Below are positions 49,456 through 58,391 of a DNA stretch of 64,000 nt, in pieces. Source of the stretch: Actinomycetospora sp. NBRC 106375 (GTDB lineage Bacteria > Actinomycetota > Actinomycetes > Mycobacteriales > Pseudonocardiaceae); the NCBI RefSeq assembly GCF_030269665.1, contig NZ_BSTS01000024.1:1-64000 (forward strand). The letters run 5' to 3'. Numbering within the stretch: the first letter of the stretch is position 1; the number at the start of each line of letters is the position of its first letter. Both the position numbers and the translations under genes were made by a program. Under the pieces are notes generated by a model that saw only the letters and a program-made list of their open reading frames with translations, ran no database searches and was not told the origin of the DNA.

Positions 49456-50757
49456 TCAGGCGCCGGCCGCCCGGCGGTAGCCGTAGCTGCGCTCGCCGTC
49501 GAGGTCGTGGAACGCGGGGTCGTCGTCGGTGTCGTCGACGAGCTCGAGGTCCTCGGGCACCGGCGGCGGGGGCGTGCGCGGCGCCGCCCAGCGGGGCGCC
49601 TCGTCGTGGTCGTGATGGTCGTCGCGACCGCTCCGCGCCGCGGGCACCCGCCGCGTGTCCTCCTCGCCCGGGTGGTCGTCGAGCTCGTCGTCGGCGTAGG
49701 CGGCCTCGTAGTCCCCGTCGATCCAGTCGGCCTCGTCCTCGCGGGCCGCGGCCATGCGGGCCTCGTGCTCGGCCTGGCGCACCCGGCGGGCCTCGAGCGC
49801 CCGGCGCTCGCCGGAGAGGCGGGCCGCGCGGCGGGCGCGGACCTCCTCGTCGATGCGCGTCTGACGGCGCAGGAAGATCAGGTAGCCGACCAGGATGACG
49901 TCGGCGGCGGCGTGCAGCCACCACATCGCGCTGGAGACCACCAGCGCCGCGAGCGCCGAGAGCACCGCGACCGCGATGAGGCCGAGCGCGATCCGCTGCC
50001 GGAACGCGTAGCGCGCCTGGGCCGCGGCCGCCGCCGCGTCGGCGTCGAACCCGCCGCGGCCGGGCCGGTACGGGCGCAGCTCCCGCGAGACGGTCTCGGC
50101 GTCCTCGAGGTCCTCGAGGTCCTCGAGGTCCTCGAGGTCCTCGAGGTCCTCGTCGTCGTAGCGGTCGTCGAACTCGTCGAGGTCGTCGTCGTACCCGCCG
50201 TCGATGTCGCACCGGCCGTCCCCGTCGTACCGGTCGTCCCCGTCGTACCGGTCGTCGTGGTCGTCCCGGTCGTCAAACTCGTCGACGTCCGGGGCGCGGC
50301 GCGGCAGGACCCGCTCGCGGCCGGCCGGGCGCTCGTCGGCCCCGGCCTCGTCGCCGTCGTCGTCCCCGTCGTCGAGCCCGCCGGCGAGATCGGTGTGGAC
50401 GTCCGTGTCCAGGTCGCTGTCCAGGTCGCCGCGGTCGGCATCGAGGTCGAGCTCGGCGTCGAGGGCCTCGGGCGTCTCGTCGTCACGCTCGGCGAGCGTC
50501 GTCCCGGCCGTGCCCGCGACCCGGCCCGTCGACCCGGAGCCCGCCGCGGCGCGCTCGCCGCCACTGCGGCCCGTCGTCTGCGCAGTCGTCACGGCGACCT
50601 CCTCGATCAGGGGTGCGCCGGCCGTCCGCGGCAGCACCCGGGCGCTCAGGTCGGCCTCGGCGGGACGCGGGACCATCTGGCGGCGGCGGGCGACCACGGG
50701 GACCAGCACGACCAGCCACGCCAGGACCAGGGCTGCGAACACGACCGAGCTCGGCAC
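49456..50757 (-). CDS. glpR: GlpR/SepX-type divisome membrane protein
   Basis: A 433-residue membrane protein. Residues ~3-23 are a membrane helix (SSVVFAALVLAWLVVLVPVVARRRQ region). Residues ~25-240 are disordered and extremely acidic, with a run of EDL repeats. Two more helices at ~254-275 and ~278-294 form a hairpin, and the C-terminus is a charged tail. This layout and the position in an operon with a MoeA-like gene match the gephyrin-like-protein receptor GlpR of corynebacteria and SepX of Streptomyces, which link the divisome to the membrane (from memory). GTG at 50757 is chosen because GGGAGGT lies just upstream. Confidence 0.8.
   Translation of the reverse strand: MPSSVVFAALVLAWLVVLVPVVARRRQMVPRPAEADLSARVLPRTAGAPLIEEVAVTTAQTTGRSGGERAAAGSGSTGRVAGTAGTTLAERDDETPEALDAELDLDADRGDLDSDLDTDVHTDLAGGLDDGDDDGDEAGADERPAGRERVLPRRAPDVDEFDDRDDHDDRYDGDDRYDGDGRCDIDGGYDDDLDEFDDRYDDEDLEDLEDLEDLEDLEDAETVSRELRPYRPGRGGFDADAAAAAAQARYAFRQRIALGLIAVAVLSALAALVVSSAMWWLHAAADVILVGYLIFLRRQTRIDEEVRARRAARLSGERRALEARRVRQAEHEARMAAAREDEADWIDGDYEAAYADDELDDHPGEEDTRRVPAARSGRDDHHDHDEAPRWAAPRTPPPPVPEDLELVDDTDDDPAFHDLDGERSYGYRRAAGA
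50101..50145 (-). repeat. 9-bp coding repeat in glpR, five units
   Basis: GTCCTCGAG (plus-strand sense) is repeated five times without error. It encodes the EDLEDL run in the acidic region of the GlpR/SepX-type protein. Length changes would stay in frame. Confidence 0.85.
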
Positions 50758-50983
50758 CCGCAGACCTCCCACCGGGACGACCGCGACGACCGGATCCGGA
50801 GCGTCGCAGCCGCCACGCTAGCCACACGAGTCCCTCGCGCCCCGTAGCGACATCGGCGTGTCGTGTGCGAGCGGTGACGTCACCCCTCCAGTGGGGGAAC
50901 CTCGTCCACCGGGGTCGGCCTGCGTATGCCACTCGACCGGGGGTCAGGTCAAGGGTTGAGACTGGGCCATGTGGGTGCGGGCC

Positions 50984-51655
50984 TCACGCCCGCTCGGCCA
51001 GACCCGCGCGCAGCAGCCGGGCGACCAGGCCGTCGGGCAGGACGTCCTCCTCGGTCACGGCGAGGACGAGGTGGTCGCGCCAGTCGCCGTCGACCTCCAG
51101 GTAGCGCCGCAACAGGCCCTCCTCGCGGAAGCCGAGCTTGGCGAGGACCCGCCGGCTGCGGGCGTTCTCGGGACGCACGGTCGCCTCGATGCGGTGCAGG
51201 CCGACGCGGGCGAAACAGTGGTCGACGGCCAGTGCGACGGCCGCGGTCGCGGCTCCCCCGCCGGCGACGTGCGCGGACACCCAGTAGCCGACGTAGGCCG
51301 AGAGCAGCGGCTCCCGGACCACGTTGCCGATGACGACCTGGCCGGCGAACTCGCCGTCCACGAGCAGCGTGAACGGGAGGGCCTGGCCGGCACGCCCCAT
51401 CGAGCGCAGCGCGCTCCAGCGCGCGGGCCACTCGATGAGCGCGTTCCGCTCGGCCCACGGCCCCGGCAGCGTCGGCTCCCACGGGGCGAGGTGCTCCTCG
51501 TCGCGCAGGCGCGTCCGCGACCACGCCGCCCCGTCGCGCAGGCGCACCGGGCGCAGGCTCACGACGCCGGCCGGCACCCGCAGGTCGCGGGTGCGCGCCG
51601 GCCAGCCGGGGTGGCGCCCGGTCGGCCGGGCCCCGCCCCACGGGGCACGGGTCAC
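50984..51655 (-). CDS. GNAT acetyltransferase, RimJ/RimL type
   Basis: A 223-residue N-acetyltransferase using acetyl-CoA, similar to the enzymes that acetylate N-termini of ribosomal proteins. Segments are VSLRPVRLRDGAAWSRTR, GQVVIGNVVREPLLSAYVGYW, a degenerate acetyl-CoA pyrophosphate loop VAGGGAATAAVALAVDHCF, and RIEATVRPENARSRRVLAKLGF, the RimJ hallmark. It lies 21 bases after the MoeA-like gene on the same strand, in the same order as in M. tuberculosis (moeA1, rimJ, Rv0996, from memory). A 226-base gap to glpR may hold a second promoter. Confidence 0.9.
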   Translation of the reverse strand: MTRAPWGGARPTGRHPGWPARTRDLRVPAGVVSLRPVRLRDGAAWSRTRLRDEEHLAPWEPTLPGPWAERNALIEWPARWSALRSMGRAGQALPFTLLVDGEFAGQVVIGNVVREPLLSAYVGYWVSAHVAGGGAATAAVALAVDHCFARVGLHRIEATVRPENARSRRVLAKLGFREEGLLRRYLEVDGDWRDHLVLAVTEEDVLPDGLVARLLRAGLAERA

Positions 51656-51676
51656 GCGCTGGATCCTCTCCCCGCG

Positions 51677-52930
51677 TCAGGTGCGGGGCGCGAGGAACGA
51701 CACGCGCACCGGGGCGTCCATGCCGACCTCGGTCGTGTCCTCGTCCACGACGATCAGCGCGTTCGCCTCGGCGAGCGAGGACAGCAGGTGCGAGCCCGAG
51801 CTGCCCAGCGGCTGGGCGAGGTAGTCGCCGGTCTGGCGGTCGCGCAGCAGGCGGCCGCGCACGTAGCTGCGCCGCCCGGGCGGGGAGCTGACCGGCGAGA
51901 GCAGCGCGGCGGTGACCTCGCGGCGGTGCAGCTCGCCGCGGCCCAGGGCGAGGCGGATCAGCGGGCGCACGAGCACCTCGAACACCACCAGGGCCGAGAC
52001 CGGGTTGGCGGGCAGCAGGAAGGTCGGGACCTCCTCGGCGCCGAGGCGCCCGAAGCCCTGCACGGAGCCGGGGTGCATGGCCACCCGCGAGATGTCGACG
52101 GGCCCGAGGGCCGCGAGCGAGTCCTGGACGTCCTCGCCCAGCCGCCCGCCGACCCCGCCCGCGAGGACGACGATCTCCGAGCGCGCCAGGGCGGACTCCA
52201 CGGCCTCGCGCAGCGCGCCGGCCTCGCTGGACGCGATGCCCAGCCGCGTGACCTCGGCGCCGGCGTCGGACGCCGCGGCCGCGAGGGCGTAGGAGTTGAC
52301 GTCGACGACCTGGCCGGTGCCCGGCGTGCGGTCGAGGTCGACGAGCTCGTCGCCCACGGCCAGCACCGACACGCGCGGGCGCGGGTGGACGAGGACCTTG
52401 GTGCGCCCGACCGCGGCGAGCAGCCCGACCTGCGCGGCGCCCACCACGGCGCCGCGGCGGACCGCGACGTCGCCGGGCGCGACGTCCTCGCCGACCCGGC
52501 GCACCCACGCCGCGGACGGCACCGGCGCCTTGACGGTGAGCCGCGCCCGGTGGCCGGTGCCCCGGACAGCCGGGTCGTCGGCCGCGTCGGTGTGGTCGTG
52601 CGGCGCGACGGCGTCGGCCAGCGTCGGCAGCGGGGCGCCGGTGGCGACCCGCACGGCCTGGCCGGGCTGGAGGCGGTGCGCCTGGCGCGACCCGACCGCG
52701 ACCTCGCCCACCACGGGCAGCTCGACCGGCTCCTCGGCCGCGGCGCGCACGTCGACGCTGCGCACCGCGAAGCCGTCGACCGCCGCCTGGTCGAACCCCG
52801 GGAGCGCCCGGTCGGCGACGACCTCCTCGGCGCAGAGCAGCCCCTGGGCGGAGGAGATGTCGACCCGGATGGGCGCCGGGCGGACGGCCGCGTCGAGCAC
52901 ACGACGCAGCTGGGCCTCCACCGTCCTCAC
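51677..52930 (-). CDS. glp: Gephyrin-like MoeA homologue (Glp)
   Basis: A 417-residue MoeA-fold protein. Some molybdotransferase features remain: FDQAAVDGFAVRS near residue 50 and VLAVGDELVDL near 190. Others are lost. The usual GGVSxGxxDxxK reads GGVGGRLGEDVQ; the usual KPGKPxxFG reads HPGSVQGFG without its lysines; PGNPVS reads PANPVS. This suggests that the insertion of molybdenum is not its main role. In corynebacteria the MoeA-like Glp binds FtsZ and the membrane protein GlpR (from memory), and a GlpR-type gene lies in this operon. The GTG start overlaps the stop of a nine-codon leader frame (52927-52956). Confidence 0.85.
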   Translation of the reverse strand: MRTVEAQLRRVLDAAVRPAPIRVDISSAQGLLCAEEVVADRALPGFDQAAVDGFAVRSVDVRAAAEEPVELPVVGEVAVGSRQAHRLQPGQAVRVATGAPLPTLADAVAPHDHTDAADDPAVRGTGHRARLTVKAPVPSAAWVRRVGEDVAPGDVAVRRGAVVGAAQVGLLAAVGRTKVLVHPRPRVSVLAVGDELVDLDRTPGTGQVVDVNSYALAAAASDAGAEVTRLGIASSEAGALREAVESALARSEIVVLAGGVGGRLGEDVQDSLAALGPVDISRVAMHPGSVQGFGRLGAEEVPTFLLPANPVSALVVFEVLVRPLIRLALGRGELHRREVTAALLSPVSSPPGRRSYVRGRLLRDRQTGDYLAQPLGSSGSHLLSSLAEANALIVVDEDTTEVGMDAPVRVSFLAPRT

Positions 52931-53038: not shown

Positions 53039-54400
53039 ATGAGCTACGTCGACGCCGCCCTGGCCGCCCTCACCGCGCGGGACGCGCACCCCGCGGAGGT
53101 CGAGGCCTTCCGCCGCCGGCTCGAGCAGCTGGCCAAGCCCGAGAGCGCGGTGGTGCCGGGCGAGGAGCTCGACGAGGTCGGCGGCCTGCCCACGCTCGAG
53201 GAGCTGGGCGAGCCCTCGGACGCCGACGCCCGCGCGGCGCTCGACCGGCTCGCGGTGATCAAGCTCAACGGCGGCCTCGGCACGAGCATGGGGCTCGCGG
53301 GCCCGAAGTCGCTGCTGGAGATCAAGCCCGGCACGAGCTTCCTCGACGCCGTCGCCCGCCAGACCCTGGCGCTGCGCGCGCACCACGGCGCGCGGCTGCC
53401 GCTGCTGCTCATGGACTCCGAGGGCACCCGCGAGCCGTCGCTCGCGGCGCTGCGCCGCCACGACGGGCTCGAGGACCCCGACCTGCCGCTGGACTTCCTC
53501 CAGGGCTCGGAGCCCAAGCTGCGCGCCGACGACTGGGAGCCGGTGTCGTGGCCCGCGGACCCGCGCCTGGAGTGGTGCCCGCCGGGGCACGGCGACCTCT
53601 ACACCGCGCTCGCGGCCTCCGGGACGATCGAGAAGCTGGTGGCCGCCGGCGTGCGCTGGTGCTTCGTGTCGAACTCCGACAACCTCGGCGCGATCCCCGA
53701 CGTGCGGGTCGCGGCGTGGATGGCGGCCCACGAGGTGCCCTTCGCCCTCGAGGTCGCGCGCCGCACGCCGATGGACCGCAAGGGCGGGCACCTGGCCCGG
53801 CGCCGTGGGTCGCTGGTGCTGCGCGAGACCGCCCAGGTGCCCGAGGGCGACGAGTCGTTCACCGACATCGAGCGCTTCTGCTTCTTCAACACGAACAACC
53901 TGTGGTTCGACCTCGAGCACCTGCGGGAGCTCCAGGACGCCGACCCCGCGGCCCCGTTCCTGCCGCTGATCGTCAACCGGAAGACCGTCGACCCCACCGA
54001 CAAGGCCTCGACGGCCGTGCTCCAGCTGGAGACGGCGATGGGCGCGGCGATCGGCTCGATCGAGGGCGCCCGGGCGATCGAGGTGCCGCGCACCCGGTTC
54101 GCGCCGGTCAAGACCACCGACGACCTGCTCGTCGCCCGCTCGGATCTCTACGACCTCACCGACGACGGGCGCATGGTGCCGACGCTGGACCGGTTCCCGG
54201 TGGTCGGCCTGGAGAAGGCCCGGTTCGGGATGCTCGGCGACTTCGAGCGCCGGTTCGCGGGCGGCGCGCCGTCGCTCGCCGGGGCGTCCTCGCTGACGGT
54301 CTCGGGTGACGTCACATTCGGGTCGGGCGTCGTCGTCGAGGGTGACGTGACGGTGGACGGGCCGCGCCACGTCGAGGACGGCGAGACGCTGCGCGGGTGA
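53039..54400 (+). CDS. UTP--glucose-1-phosphate uridylyltransferase, eukaryotic (UGP2) type
   Basis: A 453-residue UDP-glucose pyrophosphorylase of the eukaryotic-like family, not the bacterial GalU type. The signature KLNGGLGTSMGLAGPKSLLEI (residues ~78-97) is clear, followed by LLLMDSEGT, the nucleotide-binding GHGDLYTAL, FVSNSDNLGA, MDRKGGHLARR and FFNTNNLWFDL. It makes UDP-glucose for envelope glycans and trehalose or glycogen. In M. tuberculosis this place next to moeA is held by galU. It is divergent from glp and its stop overlaps the 5-FCL start (GTGA). Confidence 0.92.
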   Translation: MSYVDAALAALTARDAHPAEVEAFRRRLEQLAKPESAVVPGEELDEVGGLPTLEELGEPSDADARAALDRLAVIKLNGGLGTSMGLAGPKSLLEIKPGTSFLDAVARQTLALRAHHGARLPLLLMDSEGTREPSLAALRRHDGLEDPDLPLDFLQGSEPKLRADDWEPVSWPADPRLEWCPPGHGDLYTALAASGTIEKLVAAGVRWCFVSNSDNLGAIPDVRVAAWMAAHEVPFALEVARRTPMDRKGGHLARRRGSLVLRETAQVPEGDESFTDIERFCFFNTNNLWFDLEHLRELQDADPAAPFLPLIVNRKTVDPTDKASTAVLQLETAMGAAIGSIEGARAIEVPRTRFAPVKTTDDLLVARSDLYDLTDDGRMVPTLDRFPVVGLEKARFGMLGDFERRFAGGAPSLAGASSLTVSGDVTFGSGVVVEGDVTVDGPRHVEDGETLRG

Positions 54401-57872: not shown

Positions 57873-58391
57873 TCAGTGCTCCTCCATCCCCGACAGCTCG
57901 GCGATCACGTGGGAGATCAACGGGGTGAGCGTGGCCATCCCGTCCCGGACCGCCGCGCGGGAGGAGGCGAGGTTCACCACGAGCGTGCTGCCCGAGACGC
58001 CGACGAGCCCCCGGGAGAGCCCGGCGTCGACGGCGCCGGCGGCGAGACCGGACGCGCGGATGGCCTCGGCGATGCCCGGGATCGGGCGGTCGAGCACGCC
58101 CGCCGTCGCGTCGGAGGTCACGGCGCGCGGCGACACCCCGGTGCCGCCGACGGTGACGACGAGATCGACCCCGCCGATCACCGCGGTGTTCAGCGCGTTG
58201 CGGATGGCGACCGACTCGCCCGGCACGACGATCGTCCCGTCGACCACCAGGCCGGCCTCACCGAGCAGCTCGGTGACCAGCGGGCCGATGGTGTCCGAGG
58301 ACTCGCCCCGGCTGACCCGGTCGTCGACCACGACGACGAGGGCACGTCCCAGCAACTCCTCCGCGCCGCCGTGCAGCGGCTGGTTCTCCAT
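57873..58391 (-). CDS. moaB: MogA/MoaB family molybdenum cofactor biosynthesis protein
   Basis: A 172-residue MoCF-fold protein that binds molybdopterin and, in the MogA branch, adenylylates it. The conserved core is VVVVDDRVSRGESSDT, LVVTVGGTGVSPRAVTSDAT and the GVSGSTLVVNL C-terminal segment. Its genuine motif retention contrasts with the degraded MoeA-like protein at 51677. TACGTT (minus strand 58404-58399) ends seven bases before the ATG at 58391, suggesting a leaderless mRNA. A moaB-htrA neighbourhood is also found in M. tuberculosis (moaB2, pepD; from memory). Confidence 0.9.
   Translation of the reverse strand: MENQPLHGGAEELLGRALVVVVDDRVSRGESSDTIGPLVTELLGEAGLVVDGTIVVPGESVAIRNALNTAVIGGVDLVVTVGGTGVSPRAVTSDATAGVLDRPIPGIAEAIRASGLAAGAVDAGLSRGLVGVSGSTLVVNLASSRAAVRDGMATLTPLISHVIAELSGMEEH

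Follow-up and report, generated by a model that had tools for sequence, protein, structure and literature searches.

A Glp-RimJ-GlpR locus in Actinomycetospora and the distribution of catalytic motif loss in Glp among actinomycetes

The gephyrin-like protein Glp of Corynebacterium glutamicum binds FtsZ (4.7 uM) and the membrane receptor GlpR (5.5 nM) through the same loop (PMC10522489). Gephyrin likewise links a MoeA fold with a membrane receptor and a protein of the tubulin family, but its receptor site differs from that of Glp (PMC10522489), and Glp has no MogA fusion. In Streptomyces, SepX is a divisome membrane protein of the GlpR family encoded at the same type of locus (PMC8748795). Here we analyzed a window of 64,000 nucleotides, the whole stretch under study, from Actinomycetospora sp. 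NBRC 106375 (contig NZ_BSTS01000024.1, positions 1 to 64,000). Three genes at 49456-52930, all on the minus strand, encode a Glp, a RimJ-type Gcn5-related N-acetyltransferase (GNAT), and a GlpR/SepX protein. The three genes are a Glp-RimJ-GlpR module, an addition to the published Glp/GlpR and SepX kind. Judged from sequence, the module very probably belongs to the divisome, with Glp serving as a scaffold freed from catalysis that binds the FtsZ tail and is held at the membrane by GlpR. Comparison across the class further suggests that in many relatives Glp still looks like a working enzyme, and that it decays only with a second copy or with loss of the whole molybdenum cofactor (Moco) pathway.

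The glp gene (51677..52930) encodes a protein of 417 residues that scores 538 bits on NF045515 (cut-off 475) and carries MoeA_N, MoCF_biosynth, and MoeA_C over their Pfam cut-offs. Its best solved relative is C. glutamicum Glp (8bve/8bvf, E 9.9e-126), and it is 94% identical to the Glp of A. straminea. The GNAT gene (50984..51655, 223 residues) has Acetyltransf_3 over cut-off, and its closest solved relatives are 6c30/6c32 (E 4.9e-78). It scores 87.9 bits, against 190, on NF008072 (RimJ ribosomal-protein-S5 acetyltransferase), making it RimJ-type and not a RimJ equivalog. The glpR/sepX gene (49456..50757, 433 residues) scores 203.9 bits on NF045516 SepX_GlpR_1 (cut-off 160), and a Pfam scan of its product found no domain. 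The open reading frame extends over 49456-50772, but its likelier start is the GTG at 50757 (MPSS), where the NCBIfam model begins; of 93 relatives, 65 have a GlpR that starts [MV]PSS. Helices at residues 5-22, 256-274, and 279-296, together with two disordered regions, give it the architecture of SepX/GlpR. A preliminary description of this DNA had placed a MoeA-like protein, a RimJ-type acetyltransferase, and a three-helix membrane protein here, and all three genes lie where it put them. Its reading of the locus as a divisome module in which an enzyme fold is reused as a scaffold is borne out by family membership, by the FtsZ-contact residues that are kept, and by the published work on C. 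glutamicum.

The division role of the window's module is assigned by homology. The C. glutamicum pair (Cgl0883/Cgl0885) matches it in family models, gene neighbors, HPGSVQGFG motif, and FtsZ-contact residues. In trees of 155 and 153 rows, built by a quick method after removal of rows L234 and L235, which had been entered as MoeA but are Glps, and of the non-Glp loci L269 and L271, MoeA formed one clade at support 100 and the window protein fell inside the Glp clade. The C. glutamicum contacts L360, M361, R362, Y369, and L370 correspond to L, L, R, Y, and L in the window Glp; across V338, L343, L360, M361, R362, Y369, L370, and F414 the window residues read V L L L R Y L F. By homology, the FtsZ-binding hairpin of domain IV would be LLRDRQTGDYL (51818..51850), which holds equivalents of the contacts in PMC10522489. 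Among the Glps of the window's clade (Mycobacteriaceae/Pseudonocardiaceae), L360, R362, L370, and F414 are present in 94/94 and Y369 in 93/94. The host FtsZ ends in DEDDVDVPSFMRR, with the tail DVDVPSFM. Two proline-rich hinges were also found in the window Glp, P18/P20 and HPRPR (52373..52387). The P183 of the latter is conserved in 96% of 83 intact Glps, in 100% of 23 Glps from MoaC-less genomes, in 100% of the 94 clade Glps, and in 21% of 24 MoeA.

The window Glp shares its fold and four-domain plan with E. coli and actinobacterial MoeA (NF050098) but has lost the catalytic residues of domain III while gaining the proline hinge and the FtsZ hairpin. Residues were mapped by alignment to E. 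coli MoeA (E. coli numbering), at positions that we take to be catalytic. D59, T100, R137, D142, E188, P298, P301, R350, and S371 are kept, and eight are replaced (D228->S, S254->G, G256->R, K262->Q, K275->R, K279->H, P283->V, and G299->A). Position D259 is E in the window Glp, as it is in 28 of 30 actinobacterial MoeA sequences, and the K279 position is Q in all 30 (two of these rows, L234 and L235, were later recognized as Glps). Because actinobacterial MoeA departs from E. coli at the same two positions, the D259 and K279 differences are no evidence of loss by themselves and were rejected as signs of lost function. On a seven-position signature (D228, S254, G256, D259, K262, P283, and G299), canonical in all 26 MoeA sequences scored (two of which are Glps), the window Glp scores 1/7 and so falls outside catalytic MoeA with intact domain III residues. 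A catalytic set intact at shifted positions, the outcome that would have undone the preliminary description, was not seen in the E. coli MoeA alignment, where D228, S254, G256, K262, and P283 are gone.

The motifs quoted in that description (VDGFAVR, VGDEL, GGVGGRLGEDVQ, HPGSVQGFG, and PANPVS) are all in place. The loop once GGVSxGxxDxxK is now GGVGGRLGEDVQ (52124..52159) and varies inside the clade, and PANPVS (51995..52012) was once PGNPVS by the same alignment. The third loop, HPGSVQGFG (52049..52075), has been rewritten and then held: HPGS occurs in 94/94 and the exact motif in 87/94 Glps of the window's two families, for which reason we call it frozen. C. glutamicum Glp (8bve) also has it. 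Eighty of the 94 Glps came from a search with AMHPGSVQ among its six patterns and are biased toward the motif; the 14 from a profile search (nine of f2 and five of f1) are free of this bias, and HPGS is present in 14/14. Mean column entropy over the 94 Glps is 0.09 in the HPGSVQ loop, where H, P, G, S, and Q are invariant, compared with 1.30 in the GGVSxGxxDxxK loop and 0.69 over all columns. The degradation of catalytic motifs is thus real but clade-wide, and HPGSVQGFG is not decaying; with HPGS in all 94 relatives, motif loss peculiar to this genome was rejected.

The window's genome has a MoaC and, as the preliminary description had suggested checking, a second and intact MoeA (C4:332314-333516, 589 bits against a cut-off of 560). 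PF00384 matches occur at eight loci, some of which may be NuoG. Two of the genome's PF00384 matches (C10:239736-240998 and C23:9960-11333) contain one in-frame TGA, as do matches in several other genomes, and are possibly selenocysteine formate dehydrogenases. A third MoeA-like gene with a partial score (174 bits on NF050098) lies at C50:4064-5194.

We surveyed 197 genomes of the class, of which 147 had a Glp over cut-off. Loci were fetched in three sets: 80 spread over genera class-wide, 40 from the window's order (some below cut-off), and 80 named loci. On the seven-position signature, 68 of the 80 class loci score 6-7 and the other 12 score 0-4. Intact Glps are mostly found in a glp-moaC-mog-rimJ-glpR operon; in 60/80 class loci glp is separated from rimJ by moaC and a MoCF gene (one example of each Pfam-confirmed), and of the 76 intact loci with rimJ nearby, 74 have both rimJ and glpR after glp. 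Genomes were then tabulated (n = 118; the 80 named loci, L109, which is the second locus of one genome, and L269/L271 are excluded), counting only over-cut-off MoeA_N matches, among which fragments at contig edges may inflate second copies in a few drafts. In this table moaC adjoins glp in 70/82 intact and 0/36 decayed genomes. Decayed Glps are accompanied by a second MoeA_N in 32 of 36 genomes, and MoaC is absent from the other four (G011, G109, G217, and G249), so that no decayed Glp was found as the only MoeA of a MoaC-bearing genome among the 118. Intact Glp is the only MoeA found in 44/118 genomes, 43 with MoaC and one in which MoaC was not found (G203), and the remaining 38 intact Glps occur with a second MoeA. 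For this sample, the 44 genomes run counter to the published general view. A PF00384 search covered 26 of these 44 and gave a match of at least 120 bits in 16; matches in the rest are weaker and may be NuoG. The trees of 155 and 153 rows, from which the motif columns had been removed, separate MoeA from Glp and require seven switches between the intact and decayed states; well-supported branches force six of them in one tree and seven in the other. We read the intact state as ancestral, since MoeA and the deep branches of Glp share it. A group of divergent sub-cut-off Glps (L266-L268, L270, and L272-L274), with rimJ present and GlpR weak or missing in some, forms a decayed clade of its own.

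MoaC is absent in 28 of the 197 class genomes. In each of the 19 MoaC-less genomes that were fetched, a decayed Glp (score 0-4) is retained and rimJ and glpR lie downstream of it; one of the 19, G015, encodes in addition a MoeA of its own whose motifs are intact; seven of the 28 (G067, G080, G083, G091, G167, G175, and G184) were outside the fetched set. A Glp match under the family cut-off was identified in 26 of 30 MoaC-less genomes searched, and the weak matches in G080, G083, and G167 may not be Glp. Retention of decayed Glp with rimJ and glpR in MoaC-less genomes argues for a function of Glp unrelated to Moco, also outside the window's clade. Ten genomes, nine of f27 (1.2-1.5 Mb) and G137, encode mini-Glps (L286-L295) that lack about 105-115 residues matching domain II, which spans residues 46-145 of the C. 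glutamicum structure. MoeA_N was not found genome-wide in any of the ten; in the one mini-Glp scanned, MoCF and MoeA_C remain and MoeA_N matched at its first 42 positions only. A single origin of the mini-Glps was not rejected by the approximately unbiased (AU) test (p 0.64).

Like C. glutamicum GlpR, whose first intrinsically disordered region (IDR1) has a published pI of 4.05 (PMC10522489), the window GlpR is a three-helix receptor with an acidic IDR1, but its region is longer and repeat-rich. IDR1 (49993..50691) lies between membrane helices 1 and 2 and contains 72 D+E and 28 K+R (net -44). An acidic stretch of about 215 residues had been described here, and it is present with a length of 233 by helix calls. 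Its net charge is the fourth most negative among 184 GlpRs (3 of 187, without a clear helix pair, were left out), which fits the receptor having been called unusually acidic. Median net charge per residue is +0.11 in those receptors of the class that accompany an intact Glp and about -0.08 to -0.14 in the window's families, so acidity is a habit of the clade and was rejected as a unique feature. The excess in IDR1 overlaps DNA tandem repeats (GTCCTCGAG, 9.8 copies, at 50101-50188, and a second array at 50182-50274) and differs between Actinomycetospora species.

The GlpR tail holds two further motifs. DDDPAF (49510..49527) fits D[DE][DE]PxF, which 87/94 GlpRs that accompany an HPGS Glp (the window's included) share with 2/93 others (0.1 expected on shuffling). 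The two exceptions come from the sister family f44; counted by clade, the motif is present in 89/96 GlpRs of the window's clade and 0/91 elsewhere. In being acidic and then PxF it is similar to the tail of FtsZ, and since the same Glp loop is needed for binding both FtsZ and GlpR (PMC10522489), it is possible that the GlpR tail mimics the FtsZ tail. In GlpR, acidic residues stand in place of the FtsZ anchors L435 and V437, which counts against a perfect copy. This tail motif is not described for C. glutamicum in the text of PMC10522489. RRAAGA (49459..49476) belongs to a class-wide C-terminal motif, R-x-A-[VA]-[NG]-x, present in 163/206 GlpRs (1.6 expected on shuffling). Searches of the open-access literature turned up nothing on Glps with an intact site, on mini-Glps, or on the tail of GlpR, and a literature search for Rv0994 and Rv0995 together found no paper.

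In the mechanism we propose, Glp would act as a MoeA-fold dimer whose domain IV hairpin binds the FtsZ C-terminal tail, and GlpR would hold it at the membrane. The Glp active site would have become dispensable because the separate MoeA would make Moco in this genome. The ancestral Glp would have been an enzyme with a second, division-related role, released from catalysis several times; in the window's clade, Glp would have gained the crystallized FtsZ groove and GlpR an FtsZ-like tail that may dock on the same groove. The full history, in which Glp is moonlighting by origin (the sole MoeA, with a GlpR partner, in many actinomycetes), catalysis was lost at least six times, each time where a second MoeA or the loss of Moco synthesis had made it dispensable, streamlined genomes deleted domain II and were left with a mini-Glp next to rimJ and glpR, and the GlpR tail of the clade mimics the FtsZ tail and competes for its groove, is one that we hold tentatively, at a little under an even chance. 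Several observations weigh against parts of this account. Intact Glps do not preserve the contacts of the groove (0/83 have F at F414, and 45/83 have a gap at R362), and an ancestral FtsZ link through this groove is therefore unsupported. The 38 intact Glps beside a second MoeA indicate that redundancy permits but does not force decay. Glp is intact in MoaC-less G203; its sister G215 has MoaC 6 kb from glp, and the MoaC of G203 was thus probably lost at a contig end. The association of decay with a second MoeA or absent MoaC (Fisher p 2e-9) ignores kinship, and a phylogeny-aware test had only six pairs, of which on average 3.3 agree and 0 oppose, and was not significant. The AlphaFold model of the window Glp (27 relatives) was poor, with a mean predicted local distance difference test (pLDDT) of 60.

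The strongest competing account is that intact-motif Glps are plain MoeA without a division role, and that Glp acquired its division function only upon losing catalysis in the Mycobacteriaceae/Pseudonocardiaceae clade. To this clade are confined the FtsZ-groove residues, a longer hairpin, and the D[DE][DE]PxF tail of GlpR, and the placement of most intact Glps in a Moco operon with moaC and mog also fits. We consider this account unlikely, though not strongly so, given that glpR and rimJ follow glp in nearly all intact loci with rimJ nearby and that the hinge P183 is far commoner in intact Glps than in MoeA. MoaC-less genomes of other families also keep decayed Glp with rimJ and glpR (L060, L067, L273, and L275, and all 19 MoaC-less genomes fetched), from which it follows that Glp has a role unrelated to Moco outside the clade. 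Another proposal, that the window Glp retains molybdotransferase activity despite its altered residues, can draw on the several cleft residues that are kept and on D259->E being normal in actinobacterial MoeA; a signature of 1/7 at positions canonical in MoeA and an intact MoeA elsewhere in the genome make it highly improbable.

The protein might instead have been re-tooled, with the HPGSVQ loop giving the old active-site cleft a new ligand-binding or regulatory role. The loop is invariant while the neighboring GGVSxGxxDxxK loop drifts, and the cleft residues D59, T100, R137, D142, E188, and R350 remain. Such invariance may equally reflect folding or a dimer interface, we know of no ligand for the loop, and half of the cleft is missing from the mini-Glps that lack domain II, though outside the clade; we think this reading improbable. 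Less probable again is that RimJ controls the module by acetylating Glp or GlpR. Its appeal is positional, as rimJ lies within 2.5 kb of glp in 192/201 loci and is followed by glpR in 187/192 of these, whether Glp is intact or decayed and with mini-Glp genomes included (the five loci without glpR include some cut by contig ends). Gene neighborhood by itself shows no substrate. RimJ-like enzymes prefer Ala, Ser, or Thr after Met removal, and by that preference the Glp residue 2, R or K in 165/199, and the [MV]PSS start of GlpR in the clade are poor sites; neither partner has an N-terminus typical of what RimJ acetylates.

A UDPGP-type UTP-glucose-1-phosphate uridylyltransferase (53039..54400, plus strand, PF01704 376.6 bits) is divergent from glp, unlike in C. 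glutamicum. A GalU-motif gene on the same strand is found upstream of glp in 160/201 loci, and the UDPGP-type gene occupies that place in 5/5 Actinomycetospora relatives fetched. A MoCF-domain (MogA/MoaB-type) gene (57909..58337, minus strand, PF00994 78.1 bits) lies about 5 kb upstream of glp, near genes resembling mscL, fmdB, and 5-formyltetrahydrofolate (5-FTHF) ligase. In many other families a MoCF gene is within the glp operon, and the window's copy may have moved out. Streptomyces-type Glps (family f20, a putative assignment) keep intact motifs and the moaC-mog genes, unlike the window, and by the f20 pattern S. venezuelae would carry a second MoeA-type gene as well.

The module enlarges a published family by one member, and what is new here is the comparative pattern around it. 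Through its tail motif, GlpR may share one binding site with FtsZ, and the motif is a concrete candidate for that arrangement. If the intact sole-MoeA Glps also serve division, the parallel with gephyrin would be closer than thought, extending to moonlighting, and nature would supply three sets for testing, namely Glps with both functions, Glps whose catalysis is dead, and mini-Glps that lack domain II.

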